Shown here piece after piece: positions 10,325 to 50,598 of a DNA stretch of 53,205 bases. Every line of letters begins with the position of its first letter. Positions within the stretch are counted from its first letter, which is position 1. Both the position numbers and the translations under genes were made by a program. The notes beneath the pieces were generated by a model, which was not told where the DNA came from, did no database searches, and was given only the letters and a program-made list of their open reading frames with translations. Source of the stretch: Lentisphaerota bacterium (lineage in GTDB: Bacteria > Verrucomicrobiota > Kiritimatiellia > JAAZAB01); the NCBI GenBank assembly GCA_016188985.1, contig JACPGM010000024.1, forward strand, positions 1 through 53,205, given 5' to 3'.

Positions 10325-12089
10325 GCAATCTTGAAATTCCGAGATAATTATAAGACCAATCGCGCCAACGGTGTGGCGCTCCTACAATCGTGATTTTTCT
10401 GATTTTCTGGTAACGCAGACGGGGAATGCGGTACTGGGCGGCAATCCGCCGGTTAGCTTCGGCCAGGGCGGTTTCATCCAGCGCCAGGTCCACGCCGTAG
10501 CCTAAGAGCGAGATGCTCCGCAGGCCGCCGGAGGCGTCTACGAGCCGGAAGACATCGGCCATATTGCGCACCCCAAGGCCATTGACCGCCGTAACCACCT
10601 GGTCGCGGAATTCCTGGTAGCCGATATTGATGGAATCCGGCAGGACCATGGAAAGCACCACGACGTGGTCGCCGGGCTTTTCCATGATTTTATCCTGGTG
10701 GAGATAGTAATAAACCAAACGCGGATTCATCTTGAGTTGCCAGTTCTCGCCGGCAGCGCGCAGATATTCGCCGGTCAGCTCCTGCAGAACCAGTCCGCCC
10801 TCCACCAGGTATTCCACCGGCGCGTCGGCCTGCCCAGGCCCGGCCAGTGTCGCCTGTTCGGGAATAAGTTCTTCGGCATCGCGCTGGCGCTTGAGCAGCA
10901 CCTCGGTGCGGATAGTTTTTTGCGCGCGGACAAACTCAACCGGAACGCGCTCGCCCGGCGCGCGCCGACCGCCAATGAGATAAGGCAAGCGCAATCGGCC
11001 GAAATCTTGATCGGCATAATAACCCTGGGTGTCAACGGCAACTCCGTCCCAGGCGGTGATGACATCGCCGGCTTGCAGAACCGTGGCGGCGCCGGAGCCC
11101 GGCGACGTTTTCGTGACCAATATGCCGCCTTGCTCCTGGGGCACGCCCAAAAAGCGGCGCTTGACGGGGTCCATGAGCGGCTCGAATTGGAAGCCGGCCC
11201 AGGCCATGCCTTTATAAGGCGGCGCATTGGCATCGGCCAGGAAACGGCTGAGCGTAGTGCAGGGAATGAACAAACCCGTCTGGGTTTTCGGGTCGTAGTC
11301 CACGCTCAACCCCGCCAACCGCCCGTCAATGAACGCGGGCGTGCCGTGCTGCTCGATGCTTAATTGCGTCAGAACCTTGAGCGCCAGCGGACGTAAGGCC
11401 GCCGAGGCAGAAAGCTCCACCACTTGCGCCTCGCTGGTCTGAAACTCTCCGGAATGCTCCAGCTTTACGATGGTCAGCCGGTCATCGCGCCGAATGATGT
11501 CGGCCAGCGCCAATGGGACGGGCGCATTGGCGCCGGGCAAGTTGGTAAATCCCGTCTGGGGCGGGATGAAAGTGAGGATGGCGGTATTGAGCTGGTCATC
11601 GGCTTCGCGCACGGCTGCGGCGAGTTTACTGCCGCTTTTGGCCCGACGCAGTTCCACCTGGGTATGATTACGCACCAGGTCCTCAGTGGTCAGAACTTGT
11701 CCCGGAGCGATAACCACGCCAAAACCCTGGCGGACTTGAGCGGCTTTTTTGCGCCAGGGGATATGCGGGTCAAAATCCTGGTAGGTGACGGTAATTTCCA
11801 GCACGTTGGCGTCATAGTCTGGGGTGGGCGCGGCCAGCATCGGCAAGGGCTGGGCGAGCAGGCCGGCCAGTAGGAATCTCGAAGCAATACAAATTCTGGA
11901 TTCCCGCTGGAGTTTACCCCGTGCTTTGACACGGGGCGGGAATGACAGAGCGTGGAGTCGTTGTTTGTCATTCCCGACCTGTAGCCGCGCCCGTGAGGGC
12001 GTGGATTCTTCCGGCGGCCACGGCGTCACCGCCGCGGCTACATGAAATAGCTGCCGCCTTTGTCGGCCTGATTTAAGAACATTTCTCAT
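10221..12089 (-). CDS. Catalytically degenerate trypsin-like/PDZ protein (pseudoprotease)
   Basis: A 622-residue paralogue of the adjacent serine protease. The trypsin-like fold is recognisable (GFGVVIAPGQVLTTEDLV, then LNTAILTF, then HGTPAFIDGRLAGLSVDYD), but the His is replaced in TTEDLV and the Ser motif GNSGG is replaced by HGTPAF, so it should be inactive. A PDZ-like domain follows (GGILVTKTSPGSGAATVLQAGD). The ATG overlaps the upstream stop (ATGA), yet the signal peptide (FLLAGLLAQPLPMLA) starts only near residue 70. The intervening codons include palindromic elements at 11980-12042 and 11898-11976. The last ~55 residues begin with half of another repeat (10361-10386). It probably acts as a non-catalytic partner. 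Confidence 0.8.
   Translation of the reverse strand: MRNVLKSGRQRRQLFHVAAAVTPWPPEESTPSRARLQVGNDKQRLHALSFPPRVKARGKLQRESRICIASRFLLAGLLAQPLPMLAAPTPDYDANVLEITVTYQDFDPHIPWRKKAAQVRQGFGVVIAPGQVLTTEDLVRNHTQVELRRAKSGSKLAAAVREADDQLNTAILTFIPPQTGFTNLPGANAPVPLALADIIRRDDRLTIVKLEHSGEFQTSEAQVVELSASAALRPLALKVLTQLSIEQHGTPAFIDGRLAGLSVDYDPKTQTGLFIPCTTLSRFLADANAPPYKGMAWAGFQFEPLMDPVKRRFLGVPQEQGGILVTKTSPGSGAATVLQAGDVITAWDGVAVDTQGYYADQDFGRLRLPYLIGGRRAPGERVPVEFVRAQKTIRTEVLLKRQRDAEELIPEQATLAGPGQADAPVEYLVEGGLVLQELTGEYLRAAGENWQLKMNPRLVYYYLHQDKIMEKPGDHVVVLSMVLPDSINIGYQEFRDQVVTAVNGLGVRNMADVFRLVDASGGLRSISLLGYGVDLALDETALAEANRRIAAQYRIPRLRYQKIRKITIVGAPHRWRDWSYNYLGISRLLGFGSGEKNKRKTQTANSSKSRWAPSAAHSLLAG
10361..10386. repeat. Half of a TGTAGGAGC-type element inside the pseudoprotease 3' end
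   Basis: GCGCCA-ACGGTG-TGGCGC followed by TCCTACA matches the right half of the element at 17691-17797. It lies in frame, encoding about residues 568-576 of the pseudoprotease, after the last family-like segment. This suggests that the insertion removed the original stop codon. Confidence 0.65.
11898..11976. repeat. Compound palindrome within the pseudoprotease N-terminal coding region
   Basis: GATTCCCGC near 11899 pairs with GCGGGAAT near 11943 and encloses CCCCGTG-CTTTGA-CACGGGG (11917-11936). Two further AATGACA/TGTCATT arms follow to 11976. The stretch is translated in frame, upstream of the signal peptide. Confidence 0.65.
11980..12042. repeat. TGTAGCCGCG cloverleaf element, 63-bp copy
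   Basis: A 10-bp outer stem, TGTAGCCGCG (11980-11989) with CGCGGCTACA (12033-12042), encloses hairpins CGCCC-GTGA-GGGCG and CGGCG-TCAC-CGCCG and a GTGG/CCAC stem. Its length (63) is a multiple of three, and it lies in frame as residues 16-37 of the pseudoprotease. The copy at 50446-50544 is the same element with 36 extra bases. Confidence 0.88.
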
Positions 12090-13783: not shown

Positions 13784-13856
13784 AGCCTATGACCGGCGGC
13801 AGGCCAGCCCGAGCCAAACAGTCCGTGGCGGTAAGTCTTGTTGGTGGGTATCCTGT

Positions 13857-13977
13857 TGTAGGCCCGCATAGCCCGCCTGCAGCGCTATGCACAGCATTGC
13901 GGGCAGGCATGCGGGCATCCGCGCCACACCCGTGCTTCGTCCAGATGACTTCGCAGGGCAGGCTGTGGCGCGCTACA
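13857..13977. repeat. TGTAG dumbbell element carrying two nested hairpin insertions (121 bp)
   Basis: This matches the 51-bp element at 37721-37771 except for two insertions: 36 bp at 13871-13906 in the loop of hairpin 1 (GCCCGCAT/ATGCGGGC) and 34 bp at 13930-13963 in the loop of hairpin 2 (GCGCCACA/TGTGGCGC). 51+36+34 gives exactly 121. Flanks (GTGGGTATCCTGT before, GTTGGCACCCC after) are shared with the other copy. Confidence 0.93.
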
Positions 13978-14022
13978 GTTGGCACCCCCAATGGCTGACG
14001 GGCCCATGGCGTGTCCGCAGCG

Positions 14023-17056: not shown

Positions 17057-17117
17057 GGTAGGGCCGCACAGCCTGTGCGGCCGAAAAGACGGCTGGACAA
17101 GGCTGTCCAGCCCTACC
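17057..17117. repeat. GGTAGGG/CCCTACC dumbbell element
   Basis: Outer stem GGTAGGG (17057-17063) with CCCTACC (17111-17117) encloses CCGCACA-GCC-TGTGCGG and GGCTGGACA/TGTCCAGCC. The arms differ from those at 18642, 23659, 41208 and 44914 but remain complementary. It interrupts the gsp cluster between gspF and gspG. Confidence 0.88.
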
Positions 17118-18388: not shown

Positions 18389-18454
18389 CCGCTCAGGAGC
18401 CGAAATTCAGAATTCGGTCTTCTATACATGACGACACAAATGTTGCGGCACTCT

Positions 18455-18529
18455 GTCATTCCGAGCGAAGTCGAGGAATCTAAAGCCGTGCCACAGGAAC
18501 TAGAGATCCCTCGACAGGCTCGGGATGAC
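18455..18529. repeat. Imperfect inverted repeat GTCATTCCGAGC ... GCTCGGGATGAC
   Basis: Twelve-base outer arms with one mismatch enclose GTCGAGGAATC and GATCCCTCGAC arms. The left half recurs inside the gspK leader (20249-20292). It lies in the 18389-18725 gap, which also holds the dumbbell at 18642 and no gene. Confidence 0.7.
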
Positions 18530-18641: not shown

Positions 18642-18695
18642 GGTAGGGCGCTCTCGCCGAGAGCGCCGCGGACGGCTCGGCGAGCCGTCCCTACC
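18642..18695. repeat. GGTAGGG/CCCTACC dumbbell element, uninterrupted 54-bp copy
   Basis: Read in order: GGTAGGG, CGCTCTCG-C-CGAGAGCG, CCGCGG, ACGGCTCG-G-CGAGCCGT, CCCTACC. Every arm is perfectly complementary. It is a reference copy for the interrupted ones at 23659-23782 and 44914-45054. Confidence 0.92.
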
Positions 18696-20162: not shown

Positions 20163-21421
20163 TGCCTTATAGCAACTCAAGCCCAGATGTCTCGACTTCG
20201 CTCGACATGACACGCACCTGTGATGAGCGCAGTCGAACCAGAAACGGTCATTCCGAGTCCCAACTCCCCAGGAGGTCGGGACGAGGAATCTTACTCGCCC
20301 TGCGTAGCCCTTGGGGCGAAGCGGGGTCCGGTGTCTGGCGTCCGGCGTCCGGTGTCCGGCGTCCGGTGTCCGGTCCGCAAGCTGGCGCGGCCCTGGTGGT
20401 GGTTTTGTGGGTCGTGGGACTCTTATCTCTTTTTGTCATGGCGTTTGCCTTCGATATGCACATTGAGACCCGGATTACCTCCAGTTGGCGCAAGAAACTT
20501 AAGGCCCAGTATCTGGCCAAGGCCGGTATCGAGCTGGCCCGGATGATTCTCATGGAAACCGCCGACCCGGATGTCAATAACCCGGACACCTCCATTTACC
20601 TGGGTAAAGGTTCGGACGAGGCGGTGCGCGGCGCGGCCATCTCGCTCGCCCGGGGTGGCGTGGCCGAAATGACGCGCGAGTTGGGCGCCGGCACGCTCTC
20701 CCTGAGCGTCCGCCCCGAAAATGCGCGGATCAACTTGAACAGCATGATTTTCGTCAACGACCGCGAGCGGACCTATACTACCTGGCAGCCGCTCTTCGAA
20801 GCCGCCGGGGTTCCCTGGGAACAGTGCGATGCCCTGATTGACTGCCTGCTCGACTGGGTGGACATGGACGAGCTTACCCATCTCAACGGGGTGGAGTCTT
20901 CTTATTACGAGAGCCTGGATCCGCCCTATAAATCTAAAAACGCCGCGCTGGACACCGTGGACGAGCTCGCGCTTATCAAGGGATTCGACGAGAAACTGCC
21001 GGAGTCGGAAGTCAGCATTTACCAGGCCGTCTCCGGGTTCCTGACGACCTATGCCACTGACGAAAAAATCAACATCAATGCCGTTGATCGCAACACCATC
21101 ATGGGTTTTCTGGGAATTGATGGCGCCTTGGCTGATGAGATTATTGCCGAACGCCAGGGGCCGGATCTCAAGGATGGCACCGATGACGATCTGCCTTTCA
21201 AGAGCCTCGCTGATTTCCTGGCGCGGGTCCCGGCTTTTCCGCAGAGTCTGTCTGACCGCGTCTCGTTCACCGCCATGGGCCGTTTCTCGATCCTGGCCCG
21301 CGGCCGGGTCGGCGACCTCGAACATGCCGCGGCCTGTGTGGTGTCGCTCTCGGGCAAGAACCTGACCGTTTTACATTTTATTGAAGGCGACGCCCTGCGC
21401 GAAGACCTGATCAGCCATTGA
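20162..21421 (+). CDS. gspK: Minor pseudopilin GspK with a 75-residue repeat-derived leader
   Basis: 419 residues from ATG 20162 (GTG 20159 overlaps the gspJ stop). Cleavage is expected at G75 before AALVVVLWVVGLLSLFVMAF, the GspK type that lacks the +5 Glu. GspK helical-domain features follow (LLDWVDMDELTHLNGVESSY, later KININAVDRNTIMGFLGI). The leader comprises an ATGTC/GACAT hairpin near 20188-20212, a GTCATTCCGAG element interrupted by a TCCC/GGGA insert (20249-20292), a GTAGCCC-type hairpin and a heptad array (20330-20371). GspK caps the pseudopilus tip. Confidence 0.89.
   Translation: MPYSNSSPDVSTSLDMTRTCDERSRTRNGHSESQLPRRSGRGILLALRSPWGEAGSGVWRPASGVRRPVSGPQAGAALVVVLWVVGLLSLFVMAFAFDMHIETRITSSWRKKLKAQYLAKAGIELARMILMETADPDVNNPDTSIYLGKGSDEAVRGAAISLARGGVAEMTRELGAGTLSLSVRPENARINLNSMIFVNDRERTYTTWQPLFEAAGVPWEQCDALIDCLLDWVDMDELTHLNGVESSYYESLDPPYKSKNAALDTVDELALIKGFDEKLPESEVSIYQAVSGFLTTYATDEKININAVDRNTIMGFLGIDGALADEIIAERQGPDLKDGTDDDLPFKSLADFLARVPAFPQSLSDRVSFTAMGRFSILARGRVGDLEHAAACVVSLSGKNLTVLHFIEGDALREDLISH
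20330..20371 (+). repeat. Heptanucleotide array GGTGTCC/GGCGTCC, 6 units, inside the gspK leader
   Basis: Units: GGTGTCT, GGCGTCC, GGCGTCC, GGTGTCC, GGCGTCC, GGTGTCC. Only positions 3 and 7 vary. It encodes the Val/Arg/Pro/Ser-rich stretch GVWRPASGVRRPVSG just before the prepilin cleavage site. Confidence 0.93.
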
Positions 21422-21587: not shown

Positions 21588-22991
21588 ATGGCCCGTAATT
21601 ACATAACCGGCGTGCGTTTAGGCGATACCTTTCTGGAATTGACCACCCTAAGTTCCAGCAAGAAGGGAATGGCAGTGCTGGCTTCCCGGCAGGTGAAGCT
21701 CCTGGGCGAGACCACCGCGCTTGCGGACTTCGAGAAGCGCGCCGCGGCGATCCGCCAGCAATGCCCCGAGCTGGCCGGGCAAGTAGTCATTGGCTTGGCG
21801 CCCAACCGGATGCTCATGCGGGTTGTGGAACTTCCCACCACTGATCCGGCCGAAATGGCCGCGATGATCCAGTTGCAAGTGGATCAGTTTTCGCCGTTTC
21901 CGGAGGAACGCATGGCGGTTTCCTACGAGGTCCTGCGCGCGACGGAAACGTCCTGCCGGGCGCTGATCACGGCCGTGCCCAGGGAGCAGGTTGATTCATT
22001 GGGTGAATTATTCCGCCGGCTGGGACTTCCGATCCGGCGCATTGATGCTGAGATTATGGGCTGGTGGCGGCTGCTGGCGGATTACAGCGCTTTTGCCGCG
22101 CAAGGCAGGCAGTTGCTGCTCTTGCTGGAACCTTCTGGCGGAGCATGGCTGGCGATTCAGGACGGCCAGCCGCAGGCCATCAAAGCAGTCAGTCCCCGAG
22201 GAGACCTGTCCCCGGAAGAATACGCCGCGGAACTTGCCGGCGACCTGGGGGCTTTGATCGTGGCACTGGACCTGGAGCATGGCGCGATGCCGCTCAAGGG
22301 CTTGGATTGCTGGAGCCGCGACATGGAGATGAACTTGATCGTGCCGCGCCTGCAGCGGGAATTGGGCAATGTCGCCGTGCGCGTGCAGTCGCTGGAAAGT
22401 CTCCCGCCTTTAAGCGAGGGGCTGGCGCGGCGCGCGCTTGCGCCGGGATTCGTCCAGGGCCGGCCCGGCGCACTGGATCTGGTGCCGCCGGCTTGGCGCC
22501 TTGAGGTCGCCGGCCGACTTTTTCGGCGGCGTCTGGTCATCGCCGCGGGCGCGGCCCTTGGTCTCTGGGTGGCGGCCGTCGGCGGATTTTTAATCGGGTT
22601 TCAGTGGAACCGCTTGCAGCTTAAGCGCCTGGAGACGCGCCTGGCCGAGCTGCAGCCCGCCGCGGACGAAGTGCGGCGTTTGCAGCGGCAGGTTCATTCC
22701 TTTGAGACCTATCTTGACCGCCAGTATTCAGCGCTGGAATGTCTGCGGGAAATCAGCACGCTCTTGCCCACCAACGTGGATCTTACCGCTTTCCAGTTCA
22801 AGAAGGGCAAGACCATTTCGCTGCGGGGCGAGGCTCTGGCGGTGGAGCCGATTTATGATTTCAAAAAGGTCCTGGATCAATCAGCGCTGTTCAAAAGCAT
22901 AGAGATGGGCAGCACCCAGCCCAGTAAGCGCAAGGAGGTTACGGCCCAGACCTTTCAGATGAATGTGCGGCTCAAGGGGAACCAACCATGA
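21588..22991 (+). CDS. gspL: GspL-type assembly protein with PilM-like and PilN-like parts
   Basis: 467 residues. The N-terminal ~300 residues have the actin-like PilM/GspL cytoplasmic fold (GQVVIGLAPNRMLMRVVELP and later LLLLLEPSGGAWLAI). One membrane helix lies near residues 323-342 (LVIAAGAALGLWVAAVGGFL), followed by a coiled coil (LKRLETRLAELQPAADEVRR) and a PilN-like periplasmic domain (LPTNVDLTAFQFKKGKTISL). It links the ATPase to the platform. The stop overlaps the next ATG by 4 bases. The 166-bp gap upstream holds degenerate ATGGTTAA/TCAACCAT-type repeats. Confidence 0.85.
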   Translation: MARNYITGVRLGDTFLELTTLSSSKKGMAVLASRQVKLLGETTALADFEKRAAAIRQQCPELAGQVVIGLAPNRMLMRVVELPTTDPAEMAAMIQLQVDQFSPFPEERMAVSYEVLRATETSCRALITAVPREQVDSLGELFRRLGLPIRRIDAEIMGWWRLLADYSAFAAQGRQLLLLLEPSGGAWLAIQDGQPQAIKAVSPRGDLSPEEYAAELAGDLGALIVALDLEHGAMPLKGLDCWSRDMEMNLIVPRLQRELGNVAVRVQSLESLPPLSEGLARRALAPGFVQGRPGALDLVPPAWRLEVAGRLFRRRLVIAAGAALGLWVAAVGGFLIGFQWNRLQLKRLETRLAELQPAADEVRRLQRQVHSFETYLDRQYSALECLREISTLLPTNVDLTAFQFKKGKTISLRGEALAVEPIYDFKKVLDQSALFKSIEMGSTQPSKRKEVTAQTFQMNVRLKGNQP

Positions 22992-23593
22992 AACTATCTT
23001 CCCGGGAGGCGGCCCTGGCGGCCGGCACCGGTTTTATCCTGCTCTTTGGTCTGACCTACGTGGTGGGCGCGCCGCGGATTAAAGTGTGGCAGGAACGGAT
23101 CGCCACCGGCCAAACCCAGGCGCAGCGGATTGAACTTTCGGAGGCGCTTACCCGGAATCGCGTGCACTGGGACCAAAGACTCGCCGAGGTGCGCGGGCGG
23201 CTCTCGCGCTATCCGGCCGCCACCGATGTCACCGCCGATTACCTGAAAATTCTGGAGCGGGTGGCCAAGGAAAACAATATTACTCTGATTCAGCGCAAGC
23301 CGCAGAAGGAAAAGCGCCAGGGCGATTGCTATGAAATGCCGATTGAATGCACCTGGGAGGGCGAGCTGAACGGTCTGGTGCGCTTTCTTTTTGCCCTGGA
23401 TCAGGAGTCGGTGACCATGGATGTTGAGGAGCTTAGCGTCTCGCTTGTTTCGGGCGGCAAGGGGCGGCTCAAAGGGAACTTTACGCTGATGGGCATTTAC
23501 ACCCGCGAGGGCGATAAAGCCCCCGCGCTCTCGACCAATGCGCCGGCCAAGAGCGCCGCCGGGTCGGAGCTTGCCATCACGCCGGCGATGTGA
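22988..23593 (+). CDS. gspM: GspM/PilO-like inner-membrane protein
   Basis: 201 residues with one N-terminal membrane helix (residues 9-29, LAAGTGFILLFGLTYVVGAP), a coiled-coil stretch and a ferredoxin-like periplasmic domain (DYLKILERVAKENNITLIQR, later LNGLVRFLFALDQESVTMDV), as in PilO/GspM. The ATG overlaps the gspL stop (ATGA). It would stabilise GspL beneath the secretin. The Ala/Ser-rich tail is low complexity. Confidence 0.82.
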   Translation: MKLSSREAALAAGTGFILLFGLTYVVGAPRIKVWQERIATGQTQAQRIELSEALTRNRVHWDQRLAEVRGRLSRYPAATDVTADYLKILERVAKENNITLIQRKPQKEKRQGDCYEMPIECTWEGELNGLVRFLFALDQESVTMDVEELSVSLVSGGKGRLKGNFTLMGIYTREGDKAPALSTNAPAKSAAGSELAITPAM

Positions 23594-23658
23594 AATACTG
23601 TTCTTGGCTGGGTTTGGCAAGCCCTTTGATAGATGTCTCAGTCTTGTGGGTGGCCACA

Positions 23659-23782
23659 GGTAGGGCGCGTTCGTCCAGCCTTCGTAGCCAGTAGGCTTTC
23701 CGCCCTTGCGGATCCGCTAAGGCGGAACTACGGCGGAGTAGGCCCGAACGCGCCGCGGACGGCTCGGCGAGCCGTCCCTACC
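23659..23782. repeat. GGTAGGG dumbbell with a two-level nested insertion (124 bp)
   Basis: The outer element matches the 54-bp plan: GGTAGGG, CGCGTTCG/CGAACGCG, CCGCGG, ACGGCTCG-G-CGAGCCGT, CCCTACC. In hairpin 1 the loop base is replaced by 71 bp (23674-23744) starting TCCAGCCTTCG and ending GGAGTAGGCC. That insert matches the reverse complement of the 43-bp insert at 44997-45039, except for about 28 bp centred on GGATCC, itself a near-perfect palindrome. It lies between gspM and gspD. Confidence 0.92.
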
Positions 23783-23837
23783 ATCGCGCGACCACCTCGT
23801 AACTGAGATTACGAGATAAGCTCCGGCAAACGGTTGA

Positions 23838-26483
23838 ATGCGTTTTAAGAAAATGGCTCGTTCAAAATCAGAATTAATGTTGGGGCTGATCCTGGGATTG
23901 GCCTGCGGCTTGGGGCCGCACCTGGCCTGGGGCCAAGCGGATGTCCCGGCGGCCAAGCCGGGACAGAATCCGTTTGCGGCCTTTGCTGCCATGACTACGG
24001 GAACGGCCGTTAAGGCCGGCCAGAACCCGTTTGCCGGGTTTTCTCCGGTAACAACGGCCACCATCCCCTTGGCGGTAACCGAAAGTATAGCATTGGAGGA
24101 GGAAGAAGAGCCTGAAGAACAGATGGAAGCGGCGGAGGCCGTCGCGGCCGCTGATACCAACGGAGCGGCATTGATGCCGGCTGAGCCGGAGTCGCCGTCC
24201 ATGGATGCGCTGGTTGGGTTGAAGTATGAGAACATGGATGTCGAGGAAGTCCTCAGCCAGTATAGCGCCTGGACCGGCCTGGCGCTCATGCGCGCGCCGG
24301 ATGTGCCCGCCGCTAAAATAACCCTGAAGTGCCCCAAGCGCCTGCCCAAGCGCGAAGCGCTGCTGGCCATCGAGGGCGTGCTGGCCATGCACGGCATCGC
24401 CCTGGTGCCTATGGGCGACAAGTTCCTGAAGGTTGTGCCGATCGGCGCCGCCCGCCAGCAGGGCATGGCCACCGGCACCGGCGCCGTGGAAAAGGAGATT
24501 GAGGATACCGACCGCCTGGTGAGCCGGATTGTTGAGCTTAAACACCTCGAAATTGCCGAAGCCCAGGCTACGATCCAGAACCTGATTCACACTTACGGCA
24601 AGGTCACGCCGCTGGAGCGGGTCAACTGCCTGATGATCACGGAAACGGCGCTGAACCTCAAACGCATCCAGGAAATCCTGGCGATTATTGACCAGCCGGT
24701 GGAATCGCGCGAGGAGCTGAAGATCTTTCCCATCATCTATGCCAAGGCCTCGGAGATTCAGAGCAAGATTGAATCCATCATTGCCGATGTTCAGGCCAAG
24801 GAAGCCCAGCGGCGTACCGTTCGCCCGCAGCTTACCTCGCGCATGCCATTTCAGCCGCTCCAGCCCACGCAGCCCACGCAGCCTTCGCAGCCGACCACGG
24901 TGGAAGTTAGTCCCTCATCTCTGGAGCGGGGTTTGATCAAGAGCAAAGTCAAGATGGTGGCCGATGACCGCATCAATTCGCTGATTGTCATTACCCGGCC
25001 GGAGCAGTTTTCGTTCTTTACCAACATCATCAGCGCGCTGGACCGCAAGATTGAGCCGGAAGTCAGCATCAAGGTCTTTGCCCTGGAATATGCCGATTCC
25101 AAGGACGTGGTCAGCGTGCTGAATAATCTCTTGAGCGGCGCGACCACGAAAACAACAACGCCCCAACCAACGACGCCTACCGCCCGAACAACCACGCCGG
25201 CAATTTCGCCGTTTATGCCGACCCCAACGGAATCGGGCGCGAGCGCCACGACCACGGCAGGCGCCGGTGAAATTCAGCTTTCCGGCAAGTTGTCCTCCGA
25301 TGTGAAGATCATCGCCGATACGCGCATTAACTCGCTGCTGGTGCTGGCCAGCCGGGTGGATATGGCCGTCATCGAGGATGTCTTGCGCCAGCTTGATATC
25401 ATGCTCTCGCAGGTGCTGATCGAGGTGGCGATCATCGAGATCGGCTTGAGCGATAAGATCAGGGTGGGCATTGACTGGCTGCAGCGCTCAATGATCGCCT
25501 ATAACGAGAAGCGCTCCGGCGGCCGCAAGGCCGTCGTCGGCTTTGGCGGCGCCAGCCGCGCCGGGACCGAGGGCAGCTTGGCGGATGCCGATGCCATCAA
25601 TATGATCTCCGACCTGCCCGCGGCCCAAGGCTCGGGCTTGACCTATTATTTCAAGCTCTTTGATTACAACATTGATGCCGTTATTAATATGTTGGCGTCC
25701 GCATCGGAGGCCAAAATCCTCTCCACGCCTATTATTCTGACCATGGACAACAAGCAAGCCAAGATCATGGTCGGCGAGAAGCGCCCGATTGTAACCTCTA
25801 CCAGCATTTCCGGCGGCGGCGTGCAGCAATCGGCCTACCAATACACCGATATCGGCATTCAGCTCGACGTCACGCCGCGGATCAACAAGAAGGGTTTCGT
25901 GAACATGGATATCAAGCAGAAGATTGATAACACCGGCGAAGACGTCATCATTGACGGCAACGCCGTGCCGATCATCACCACCCGTGATTTTACCGCCTCC
26001 ATTGCGGTTAACGACGGACGCACCATCGTGATCGGCGGGATTGTCACCACCGAAAAGAAAAAGGGGCGCACCAAGATTCCCTTCCTGGGCGATATCCCGC
26101 TCTTGGGCGTGCTCTTTCGCTCCGACAGCGCCGGCGAGACCCGGCGGGAATTGATCGTGCTGATGACGCCCTACGTGCTCAACACCCCGGAAAAAGCCTA
26201 TGCCGAAACCGCGCGGCGCCATGGCTATATTACCGCCGCCTCTAACATGTTGGCCGAAAGCTGGTCGGGAAGCGCGCTCTCAACGCCGAACGCCGCTGCG
26301 GAGCAGGAGCTCAAAAAGCAACAAGATGCGCTTGAACCCGAAGGCAAGCTGGCGCCGCCGGGCTCTGCCAAATCCCTGGATATTAACGTGGTGCTGGAAT
26401 CGCCGACCGGCGGGGTCCAGAATGTTCCGATCACCGTGCGGGAGCAAACCGCGCCGTCCATGCCGCCGAAGGATTCACCTTGA
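23838..26483 (+). CDS. gspD: Type II secretion secretin GspD
   Basis: An 881-residue outer-membrane channel protein. Signal peptide residues ~1-34 (ending AWGQA); the start could also be ATG 23853. An Ala/Glu-rich linker with two NPFA.F motifs precedes the N0 domain (LKYENMDVEEVLSQYSAWTG), then N1-N3 repeats (SRIVELKHLEIAEAQATIQN; FPIIYAKASEIQSKI; FALEYADSKDVVSVL) separated by Thr/Pro-rich linkers. The secretin core begins near VLIEVAIIEIGLSDKI and includes GIQLDVTPRINKKGF and IVIGGIVTTEKKKGRTKIPF. It is the last gene of the gsp cluster. No gspC-like gene is recognised. Confidence 0.95.
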   Translation: MRFKKMARSKSELMLGLILGLACGLGPHLAWGQADVPAAKPGQNPFAAFAAMTTGTAVKAGQNPFAGFSPVTTATIPLAVTESIALEEEEEPEEQMEAAEAVAAADTNGAALMPAEPESPSMDALVGLKYENMDVEEVLSQYSAWTGLALMRAPDVPAAKITLKCPKRLPKREALLAIEGVLAMHGIALVPMGDKFLKVVPIGAARQQGMATGTGAVEKEIEDTDRLVSRIVELKHLEIAEAQATIQNLIHTYGKVTPLERVNCLMITETALNLKRIQEILAIIDQPVESREELKIFPIIYAKASEIQSKIESIIADVQAKEAQRRTVRPQLTSRMPFQPLQPTQPTQPSQPTTVEVSPSSLERGLIKSKVKMVADDRINSLIVITRPEQFSFFTNIISALDRKIEPEVSIKVFALEYADSKDVVSVLNNLLSGATTKTTTPQPTTPTARTTTPAISPFMPTPTESGASATTTAGAGEIQLSGKLSSDVKIIADTRINSLLVLASRVDMAVIEDVLRQLDIMLSQVLIEVAIIEIGLSDKIRVGIDWLQRSMIAYNEKRSGGRKAVVGFGGASRAGTEGSLADADAINMISDLPAAQGSGLTYYFKLFDYNIDAVINMLASASEAKILSTPIILTMDNKQAKIMVGEKRPIVTSTSISGGGVQQSAYQYTDIGIQLDVTPRINKKGFVNMDIKQKIDNTGEDVIIDGNAVPIITTRDFTASIAVNDGRTIVIGGIVTTEKKKGRTKIPFLGDIPLLGVLFRSDSAGETRRELIVLMTPYVLNTPEKAYAETARRHGYITAASNMLAESWSGSALSTPNAAAEQELKKQQDALEPEGKLAPPGSAKSLDINVVLESPTGGVQNVPITVREQTAPSMPPKDSP

Positions 26484-29290: not shown

Positions 29291-29364
29291 TGCCGGATGG
29301 TGTAATGGTAGCACAACAGACTCTGGATCTGTTTGTCCAGGTTCAAGTCCTGGTCCGGCAACCA
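29291..29364 (+). tRNA. tRNA-Gln (anticodon CTG)
   Basis: The acceptor stem TGCCGGA (29291-29297) pairs with TCCGGCA (29354-29360), followed by A and CCA. The anticodon arm is ACAGA-CTCTGGA-TCTGT, with loop CTCTGGA giving anticodon CTG (codon CAG). The T arm contains GGTTCAAGTCC. The last 43 bases before the discriminator are repeated at 34626-34668, marking an insertion site. Confidence 0.95.
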
Positions 29365-34625: not shown

Positions 34626-34668
34626 AGACTCTGGATCTGTTTGTCCAGGTTCAAGTCCTGGTCCGGCA
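34626..34668 (+). repeat. Partial tRNA-Gln direct repeat (putative attR)
   Basis: A 43-bp exact copy of 29318-29360, from the anticodon stem to the acceptor stem. It lacks the 5' half, so it cannot make a tRNA. Immediately after it, a mini-hairpin stretch (34683-34722, GCCGGAGGC and GTCCGCC/GGCGGG parts) separates it from a second TCCGGCA and CTTGTGC, which resemble the sequence following the intact tRNA. Confidence 0.9.
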
Positions 34669-37612: not shown

Positions 37613-37720
37613 AGCGAGCCCAGCGTATCGGTGCAAGCGGACAACGTAGCCAAGGCAGCAATCTATCACACTTTATAAAGTGTGGGAGTAAGGCCTTAGT
37701 CTGGTGGGTGGGTATCCTGT

Positions 37721-37771
37721 TGTAGGCCCGCATAGCATGCGGGCATCCGCGCCACACTGTGGCGCGCTACA
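37721..37771. repeat. TGTAG dumbbell element, uninterrupted 51-bp copy
   Basis: TGTAG outer stem with CTACA, hairpin GCCCGCAT/ATGCGGGC and hairpin GCGCCACA/TGTGGCGC. It is the uninserted counterpart of 13857-13977. It lies in the 37613-37898 gap with two CACACTTTATAAAGTGTG palindromes and no gene. Confidence 0.92.
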
Positions 37772-37820
37772 GTTGGCACCCCAAATAATTGAGACATTAC
37801 AACGCAGCCAGAAAATCAAT

Positions 37821-37846
37821 CTATCACACTTTATAAAGTGTGATAG
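37821..37846. repeat. 26-bp perfect palindrome around CACACTTTATAAAGTGTG
   Basis: A perfect 26-bp palindrome (CTATCACACTTTA and its complement). A partial copy at 37663-37684 shares the same left flank (CTATCACAC), and a variant is at 13766-13783. It lies 53 bp upstream of the Calx-beta gene. No T-run follows, so a terminator is unlikely. Confidence 0.85.
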
Positions 37847-37898
37847 AAACCTTCCCGGGACACAGTTTGGCAGGGAAGTGTAAAACAAGGAGGACGAT

Positions 37899-41207: not shown

Positions 41208-41261
41208 GGTAGGGCGGTTTCGCCGAAACCGCCGCGGCGCGCTCGGCGAGCGCACCCTACC
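41208..41261. repeat. GGTAGGG/CCCTACC dumbbell element, uninterrupted 54-bp copy
   Basis: GGTAGGG, CGGTTTCG-C-CGAAACCG, CCGCGG, CGCGCTCG-G-CGAGCGCA, CCCTACC. One terminal mismatch is present in arm 2. It sits in the 41090-41367 intergenic gap between the divergent AraC and cupin genes; no gene is seen there. Confidence 0.9.
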
Positions 41262-44913: not shown

Positions 44914-45054
44914 GGTAGGGACGGCTCGCCGAGCCGTCCGACTTCGCGACGCGGCAACGCGCCGCTACGGCGCGACGACGGTCCGCGGCGCGTTCGGGCC
45001 TACTCCGCCGTAGCAAAGCCTCTGGCTGCGAAGGCTGGACGAACGCGCCCTACC
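44914..45054. repeat. GGTAGGG dumbbell with two nested insertions (141 bp)
   Basis: Plan: GGTAGGG, ACGGCTCG-C-CGAGCCGT, then a ~45-bp insert (44938-44982, GCGGC/GCCGC-rich), CCGCGG, CGCGTTCG, a 43-bp insert (44997-45039) and CGAACGCG, then CCCTACC. The 43-bp insert lies at the apex of the second hairpin and is the reverse complement of the core of the insert at 23674-23744. Confidence 0.92.
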
Positions 45055-48514: not shown

Positions 48515-48565
48515 GTTGCGCGCATTTGGCGCAGGGCGCTGCGCCCTGCGCCAAATGCGCGCAAC
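48515..48565. repeat. 51-bp perfect palindrome (25-bp arms)
   Basis: A 25-bp arm (GTTGCGCGCATTTGG... to GGGCGC) is followed by a single T and its exact reverse complement. It is nested inside a larger, imperfect inverted repeat whose arms contain CACCACGGAGACACGGA (near 48459) and TCCGTGTCTCTGTGGTG (near 48617). The 48423-48736 gap contains only this repeat and a GGCGGATACGCCTTCGGCGG mini-hairpin. Confidence 0.9.
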
Positions 48566-50445: not shown

Positions 50446-50544
50446 TGTAGCCGCGCCCGCCCGCCTGCAACGCTGTGCGTAGCACTGCGGGCAGGTGAGG
50501 GCGTGGATTCTTCCGGCAGCCACGGCGTCACCGCCGCGGCTACA
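50446..50544. repeat. TGTAGCCGCG cloverleaf element with a 36-bp nested hairpin (99 bp)
   Basis: Same as the 63-bp element at 11980-12042 except for 36 bases (50459-50494) between CGCCC and GTGAGGGCG, at the apex of the first hairpin. The insert differs from the one at 13871-13906 at 5 of 36 positions. Confidence 0.93.
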
Positions 50545-50598
50545 TGAATGCATAGGAATTTCCCGCCTGAGGCTGGTCTGCCTACGGCATGACAATGT

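Follow-up and report, generated by a model that had tools for sequence, protein, structure and literature searches.

In a 53,205-nucleotide stretch of the genome of a Lentisphaerota bacterium (hereafter the window), the spacer between a gspM-like gene and gspD contains a composite repeat whose core of 124 bp begins with GGTAGGG and ends with CCCTACC. Inspection of the sequence places this core at 23659-23782, exactly where the earlier note had located it. A 144-bp query recovered dozens of copies from the same genome, the best second copy with an E value of 1.6e-62. The window copy is built of four levels, with L0 arms enclosing L1 (54 bp), which holds L2 (42 bp), which in turn holds L3 (28 bp) (Table 1). 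The earlier note had recognized the nesting of the three inner levels but had overlooked the outer L0 arms. Taking 70 bp (23674-23743) out of the window copy restores an intact L1, GGTAGGGCGCGTTCGCCGAACGCGCCGCGGACGGCTCGGCGAGCCGTCCCTACC, the insert being situated between GGTAGGGCGCGTTCG and CCGAACGCGCCGCGGACGGCTCGGCGAGCCGTCCCTACC. L2 occupies the loop of hairpin A and reads TCCAGCCTTCGTAGCCAGTAGGCTT followed by ACTACGGCGGAGTAGGC, with L3, TCCGCCCTTGCGGATCCGCTAAGGCGGA, at the joint between them. The inserts at the hairpin apex had been described as 71 and 43 bp long; both are present, but they measure 70 and 42 bp, the central C of the hairpin having been counted with them. Relative to the clean form of L2, defined by the 42-bp version of about 30 other copies, the window copy contains exactly 28 additional base pairs (23699-23726) between GGCTT and ACTACGG, in agreement with the proposed 28-bp difference centred on GGATCC. 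The reverse-strand copy at 44997-45039, previously taken as the short form, indeed carries L2 without these 28 bp, but it belongs to a diverged subtype (44914-45054) and is not a clean reference.

Table 1. Components of the composite repeat in the window, its flanking genes and further L1 copies.
Feature	Position	Strand	Sequence or evidence
L0 left arm, outermost level	23632..23658	+	GATGTCTCAGTCTTGTGGGTGGCCACA, degenerate form of GTAANNNCTCAGTCTTGTGGGGGCAACA; alignment with about 40 copies
L1 left part: outer stem and 5' arm of hairpin A	23659..23673	+	GGTAGGGCGCGTTCG
L2 left part	23674..23698	+	TCCAGCCTTCGTAGCCAGTAGGCTT; left boundary same in tolQ (C80) and in hairpin GTTGACGGCCGC
L3, 28-bp tandem hairpin pair joined at GGATCC	23699..23726	.	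TCCGCCCTTGCGGATCCGCTAAGGCGGA; four empty/occupied site pairs
L2 right part	23727..23743	+	ACTACGGCGGAGTAGGC
L1 right part: hairpin A 3' arm, GC junction, hairpin B (GGACGGCTCGGCGAGCCGTCC), outer stem CTACC	23744..23782	+	
L0 right arm	23783..23812	+	ATCGCGCGACCACCTCGTAACTGAGATTAC, TTAC at end
gspM-like gene, upstream	22988..23593	+	T2SSM_b slightly under Pfam cut-off; tblastn match in congeners
gspD (secretin), downstream	23838..26483	+	Secretin 9.3e-47
Second L1 copy, L2 at about 44998-45039, without L3; 45-bp insert at hairpin junction; inside L0 arms	44914..45054	-	
Empty 54-bp L1, in different host repeat	18642..18695	+	Stem CGCTCTCG; host repeat ATTTGAAATTTT...AAAATGTTCAA
Empty 54-bp L1 relative	41208..41261	+	Other hairpin sequences

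The genes gspM and gspD adjoin in congeners too, and the orthologous spacers of three of these (G002, G003, G004) lack the whole element. The surroundings of the window copy are thus secured by synteny instead of by a target duplication, none being recognizable at this copy, whose left L0 arm is degenerate. Because the genome is a fragmented metagenome bin (3.09 Mb in 173 contigs, 86% complete) with many near-identical copies of the repeat, misjoining of repeats during assembly was considered as an explanation. Such misjoining would not, however, preserve the 8-bp matches found on both sides of 19 copies (see below), the window copy lies between genes that are neighbours in congeners as well, and the read-through of an L2 insertion in tolQ matches the orthologs except for 42 bp; we regard an artefact as highly improbable. 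The spacer RNA has a strong predicted fold (z -2.9), and Rfam returned no RNA family across the element. The composite would seem to have no dedicated host function at this locus beyond adding strong hairpins to the spacer.

L1 consists of two hairpins in inverted orientation, separated by a 2-nt spacer and bearing GTAG at both outer ends, and the 54-mer is predicted to fold as DNA into a three-way junction (z -4.2). A half-L1 pattern matched 113 times in the genome and was present in 16 of the 146 genomes of the class, the reversed control pattern matching nowhere in either search. Copies are dispersed over many contigs, and the main ones in the window are intergenic. Empty L1 occurs in the same genome (C105, C79, C60, C99 and, with one base changed, C4), and members of other families of the class have an L1 of the same architecture with an unoccupied hairpin A (L063, L068, L077); L1 is old. 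Within the genome it is enclosed by outer repeats of no fewer than three kinds, the stems being CGCGTTCG, CGCTTTCG or CGCTCTCG, and L2 occurs in the loop of all three. Independent and recurrent entry of L2 into three L1 stem variants (GTTCG, TTTCG, TCTCG) is likely, although local gene conversion may also have produced this distribution. At 17057-17117 lies a further double hairpin, GGTAGGG...CCCTACC, the two hairpins of which differ considerably in sequence from those of L1.

As the earlier note had suggested, each layer was searched singly, and L1, L2 and L3 were all recovered outside the context of the window copy. For L2, a pattern search gave 45 copies in the genome, one in G001 and two in G008, the form without L3 being the commoner. 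A solitary L2 is found at the 3' end of a tolQ/exbB-like gene (L133; G000:C80:28984-29011), where the orthologs of four congeners (G001-G004) lack exactly those 42 bp between GAGCGG and CACAGT. The occupied site reads GAGCGG, the 42 bp, then CACAGTCTGCGGGCG, and the empty sites read GAACG(T/C)CACAGC. The insertion alters the end of the encoded protein from ...ERHSLR(A/K) to ...ERSSLRSQ, and a second copy of the gene on contig C155, 92% identical, is without L2. Two additional L2 copies reside at the apex of an unrelated hairpin, GTTGACGGCCGC...GCGGCCGTCAAC, for which an empty sibling exists (L103). The L2 ends, TCCAGCC...GTAGGC, are constant across these unrelated sites, and no target duplication accompanies the L2 insertions. 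In view of the tolQ orthologs and of the empty L1 copies across the class, deletion in place of insertion was rejected. To judge from these sites, L2 appears to move on its own.

L3 folds into a tandem pair of short hairpins, with GGATCC at their meeting point. Its pattern matched 50 times per strand in the genome and 9, 49, 13 and 29 times in four congeners, the reversed control giving no match in any of them, and most copies lie outside nested contexts of the window type. Four pairs of empty and occupied sites could be assembled, all of them precise and without target duplication: between GGCTT and ACTACGG within L2; between ACACGC and AAAAACGTG in a hairpin loop (empty in L021 and L225, filled in L050 and L052); between AGGGAGGCTT and ACTTCGCAGAG (empty in L207, filled in L035); and between GGGAT and AAACTCGG within an insert of hairpin B. 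The ends of the module, TCCGC...GCGGA, are constant. From these sequence comparisons L3, too, appears to move on its own.

We also considered that L2 and L3 are not themselves mobile, the nested unit having arisen once and spread only as cargo of L0, with the other forms representing deletion or recombination derivatives. L3 is identical in sequence in all nine L2+L3 copies found by pattern, so that its entry into L2 was probably a single event followed by amplification, and the target duplications of L0 surround finished composites, in keeping with spread as cargo. Such a scheme does not accommodate the solitary L2 in tolQ, at a site empty in four congeners, or the L2 copies in the GTTGACGGCCGC hairpin with its empty sibling. 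Nor does it account for the precise presence of the same L3 and its relatives in hosts without L0 or L1, or for the occurrence of L3 throughout the genus in genomes lacking the L1 pattern. The scheme is already refuted in large part by the tolQ and GTTGACGGCCGC sites, and we consider it improbable.

Separate mobility of the inner modules is consistent with the proposal in the earlier note of an insertion into an insertion into an element, which the empty and occupied sites bear out. The note had named two observations that would speak against this proposal, namely modules never found outside the composite and a 71-bp form that is ancestral. Instead, L3 is present in about 50 places and in four congeners, and L2 lies outside L1 in tolQ and in a further hairpin as well as in G001 and G008. 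The long form (70 bp) is derived, because the 54-bp form is empty in other families and L2 more often lacks L3 than carries it. Every inner layer also occurs by itself, the insertions are precise, and the order is L1, L2, L3. We limit the order to these three layers and leave out the relation of L0 to L1 because L1 was never seen removed from L0; the joined L0 arms were never matched as one piece.

In all, 55 L1 copies were parsed from stretches of the genome, a sample of the copies present. Perfect 8-bp repeats lie just outside the L0 arms in 19 of the 55 copies, one of which (L062) is situated within an L3 repeat and could be due to chance, compared to 11 of 2970 re-pairings of flanks (0.4%). 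Most copies with target duplications start with GTAA and finish with TTAC, and those flanked by 8-bp repeats include empty L1, L2 and L1+L2+L3 forms (L003, L006). Because target duplications accompany L0 only, L0 would have carried finished composites, with L2 and L3 arriving by another route. GTAA ends and 8-bp duplications are hallmarks of IS66 elements (PMC11946415, PMC12888890), and L0 resembles an IS66-type MITE in both respects; in contrast to such a pairing of MITE and parent, no IS66 transposase (PF03050) was detected in the assembly, and at five loci of relatives the ends of IS66 did not resemble those of L0. A search for the IS66 parent of L0 was thus negative in the genome itself, and the ends were unmatched in the relatives checked.

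The architecture of L1 recalls GTAG REPs, BIMEs and REPINs. GTAG REPs form head-head dimers, are present in the verrucomicrobial Opitutus terrae, and in some cases lie as dimers within longer palindromes (Di Nocera et al., PMC3733652), and REPINs have been defined by Bertels and Rainey (PMC3116915). L1 is likewise a head-head hairpin doublet with GTAG at both outer ends, which raises the question of whether L1, L2 and L3 are REP/REPIN elements moved on single-stranded DNA by a RAYT (TnpA-REP). Insertion without duplication fits HUH enzymes, and Y1 genes (PF01797) occur in the genome and in all ten relatives tested. However, when about 1.5 kb of flanking sequence was checked, GGTAGGG hairpins of the L1 family bordered neither of the two Y1 loci in the incomplete assembly of this genome nor any of the 30 loci in the relatives. 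Moreover, the loops of L1 host other modules, unlike those of REPINs, and L2 and L3 lack a 5' GTAG tag. A RAYT as mover of all three layers is unlikely on this evidence. Because a cognate RAYT with the same REPs was not found, L1 is REPIN-like but is not classed as a REPIN. The hairpins of L186 (G006) have a related GTAGGGCGGC start, but they form regularly spaced repeats on both strands and are not L1. In the relative G009, contigs C420, C419, C382 and C165 contain tandem arrays of the hairpin GGACGGCTCGGAGAGCCGTCCCTACC with a period of 36-40 bp.

The parsed copies also document how the slots of L1 are used. In 13 copies nothing is inserted in the loop of hairpin A; 32 copies have L2 there and 8 have L2+L3, and an unrelated palindrome of 36 or 22 bp takes this place in one copy each. 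Inserts of 33, 27 and 45 bp are found at the junction of the two hairpins, a 30-bp insert in the loop of hairpin B, a complex 42-bp composite insert (42B), at times with an L3 relative inside, in the stem of hairpin B, and an insert of about 30 bp in the right L0 arm. The 55 copies display 32 module combinations in fixed slots. All four combinations of presence and absence are represented for 25 module pairs, and still for 11 pairs among copies with matching 8-bp flanks; the copies would therefore also recombine or receive repeated hits. Thus, the ordered nesting claimed previously holds along the chain L1, L2, L3, but modules reassort in the other slots, and the element as a whole is a mosaic produced by recombination or recurrent insertion. 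The window contains a second composite repeat family (13834-13992 and 37698-37786) with L0-like arms and a different core; the first of these copies has an extra palindrome related to the 36-bp module of loop A and the second lacks it, giving a nested presence/absence pair. The 37698 composite is bracketed by 51-bp direct repeats (37641-37691 and 37799-37849), each with the palindrome CACACTTTATAAAGTGTG.

Loops and junction account for 11 of the 53 possible sites in the predicted L1 fold, and seven of the eight different inserts can be placed there, a placement with a probability of about 1e-4, though the choice was post hoc, certain inserts can be placed in more than one way and insertions into stems could have disappeared. 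Indeed, the loop preference could be a survival bias, since insertion into a stem would kill the host hairpin. The 42B insert in the stem of hairpin B counts against loop targeting, and the tolQ site of L2 has no obvious hairpin. Widespread GTCATTCCCGA...TCGGGAATCCAG repeats (L035, L056, L112, and 18454-18481 and 20185-20212 in the window) host other palindromic modules.

Replication errors offer a route for the inner modules that involves no transposase, namely template switching between hairpins, short homologies and gene conversion. The lack of target duplications at L2 and L3, the concentration of sites in hairpin loops and junctions, the 25 four-combination module pairs (11 among copies with matching flanks), which imply conversion or recurrent hits, and the failure of the search to find a cognate transposase would all fit such errors. 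Against them stand the constant ends of L3 and those of L2, which are identical at unrelated sites, one of them coding and showing no visible homology; this constancy favours end recognition. We judge replication errors alone to be rather unlikely, if somewhat less so than movement by a RAYT.

We consider it probable that the gspM-gspD spacer contains a four-level composite of non-coding mobile elements, in which an L0 MITE carries a REPIN-like L1 with the separately mobile L2 and L3. L0 would be a non-autonomous transposon (MITE) with GTAA-type ends that generates an 8-bp target duplication and, for that reason, is most likely mobilised in trans by an IS66-type DDE transposase. Its cargo would be L1, a pair of GTAG-tagged hairpins arranged as in a REPIN. 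L2 and L3 would constitute separate miniature mobile hairpin modules, L2 entering the exposed loop of hairpin A precisely and L3 then entering L2 in the same manner, both without target duplication. Entry into single-stranded loops may proceed via an HUH/Y1-type enzyme or via replication-coupled template switching. Finished composites would be copied onward by L0, and the contents of the slots may later be rearranged, whether through recombination among copies or through repeated hits. A broader reading, which we offer tentatively, is that L1 acts as a platform whose loop A, junction, loop B and outer flank are fixed slots into which about eight different hairpin modules of 22-45 bp insert precisely and recurrently by a single-strand process, the combinatorial composites being spread by an IS66-like MITE. 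If this is true, such loop-homing mini-elements would be among the smallest mobile DNAs known.

Elhai et al. are said to have described in 2008 the SDRs of Nostoc punctiforme and relatives, hairpins of 20-30 nt that insert precisely, occur inside minitransposons and are nested in one another. We know of no mover for these cyanobacterial elements. The nesting described here is real and ordered, and similar tiny nested elements are already known in other bacteria; the statement that such nesting is rarely described is fair, but nested SDRs and the REP dimers within longer palindromes mentioned above keep it from being unprecedented. As tiny, nested, precisely inserted hairpin modules, SDRs appear to be the closest match for L2 and L3, which are 20-45 bp units with empty sites. 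The likeness is one of description, and it spans different phyla. Unlike for SDRs, the present case includes an orthologous site lacking the insert in four species, a chain of four levels and an outer transposon that leaves target duplications, and its sites are mostly hairpin loops. For SDR5, precise insertion into HIP1 is mentioned in PMC4390886. Mobile elements inserted in palindromic repeat units are also exemplified by IS1397 and other insertion sequences that target REP hairpins (PMC1525189). Those are full insertion sequences with transposase genes, whereas the modules here are gene-free and 22-45 bp long.

Copy number is the usual ground for regarding gene-free elements shorter than 50 bp as mobile. 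Here, orthologous genes of five species differ precisely by the presence or absence of a 42-bp module, and four different hosts contain a 28-bp module, most landing sites being loops. With ends, targets and empty sites defined to the base, the movement of tiny hairpins becomes directly testable. The composite also illustrates a layered build-up of intergenic repeats from REP-like hairpins, MITEs and smaller modules.

Further repeats in the window are a 61-bp repeat with an CCACGGCGTCACCGCCGCGG hairpin at 11986-12046 and 50488-50548 (93% identical), which represents another dispersed family, and a perfect inverted repeat at 48515-48565 (25+25 bases with a 1-base gap). In addition, the 43-base 3' part of a tRNA-Gln (CTG) gene at 29291-29364 is exactly repeated 5.3 kb downstream (34626-34668), an arrangement that resembles the ends of an integrated element.
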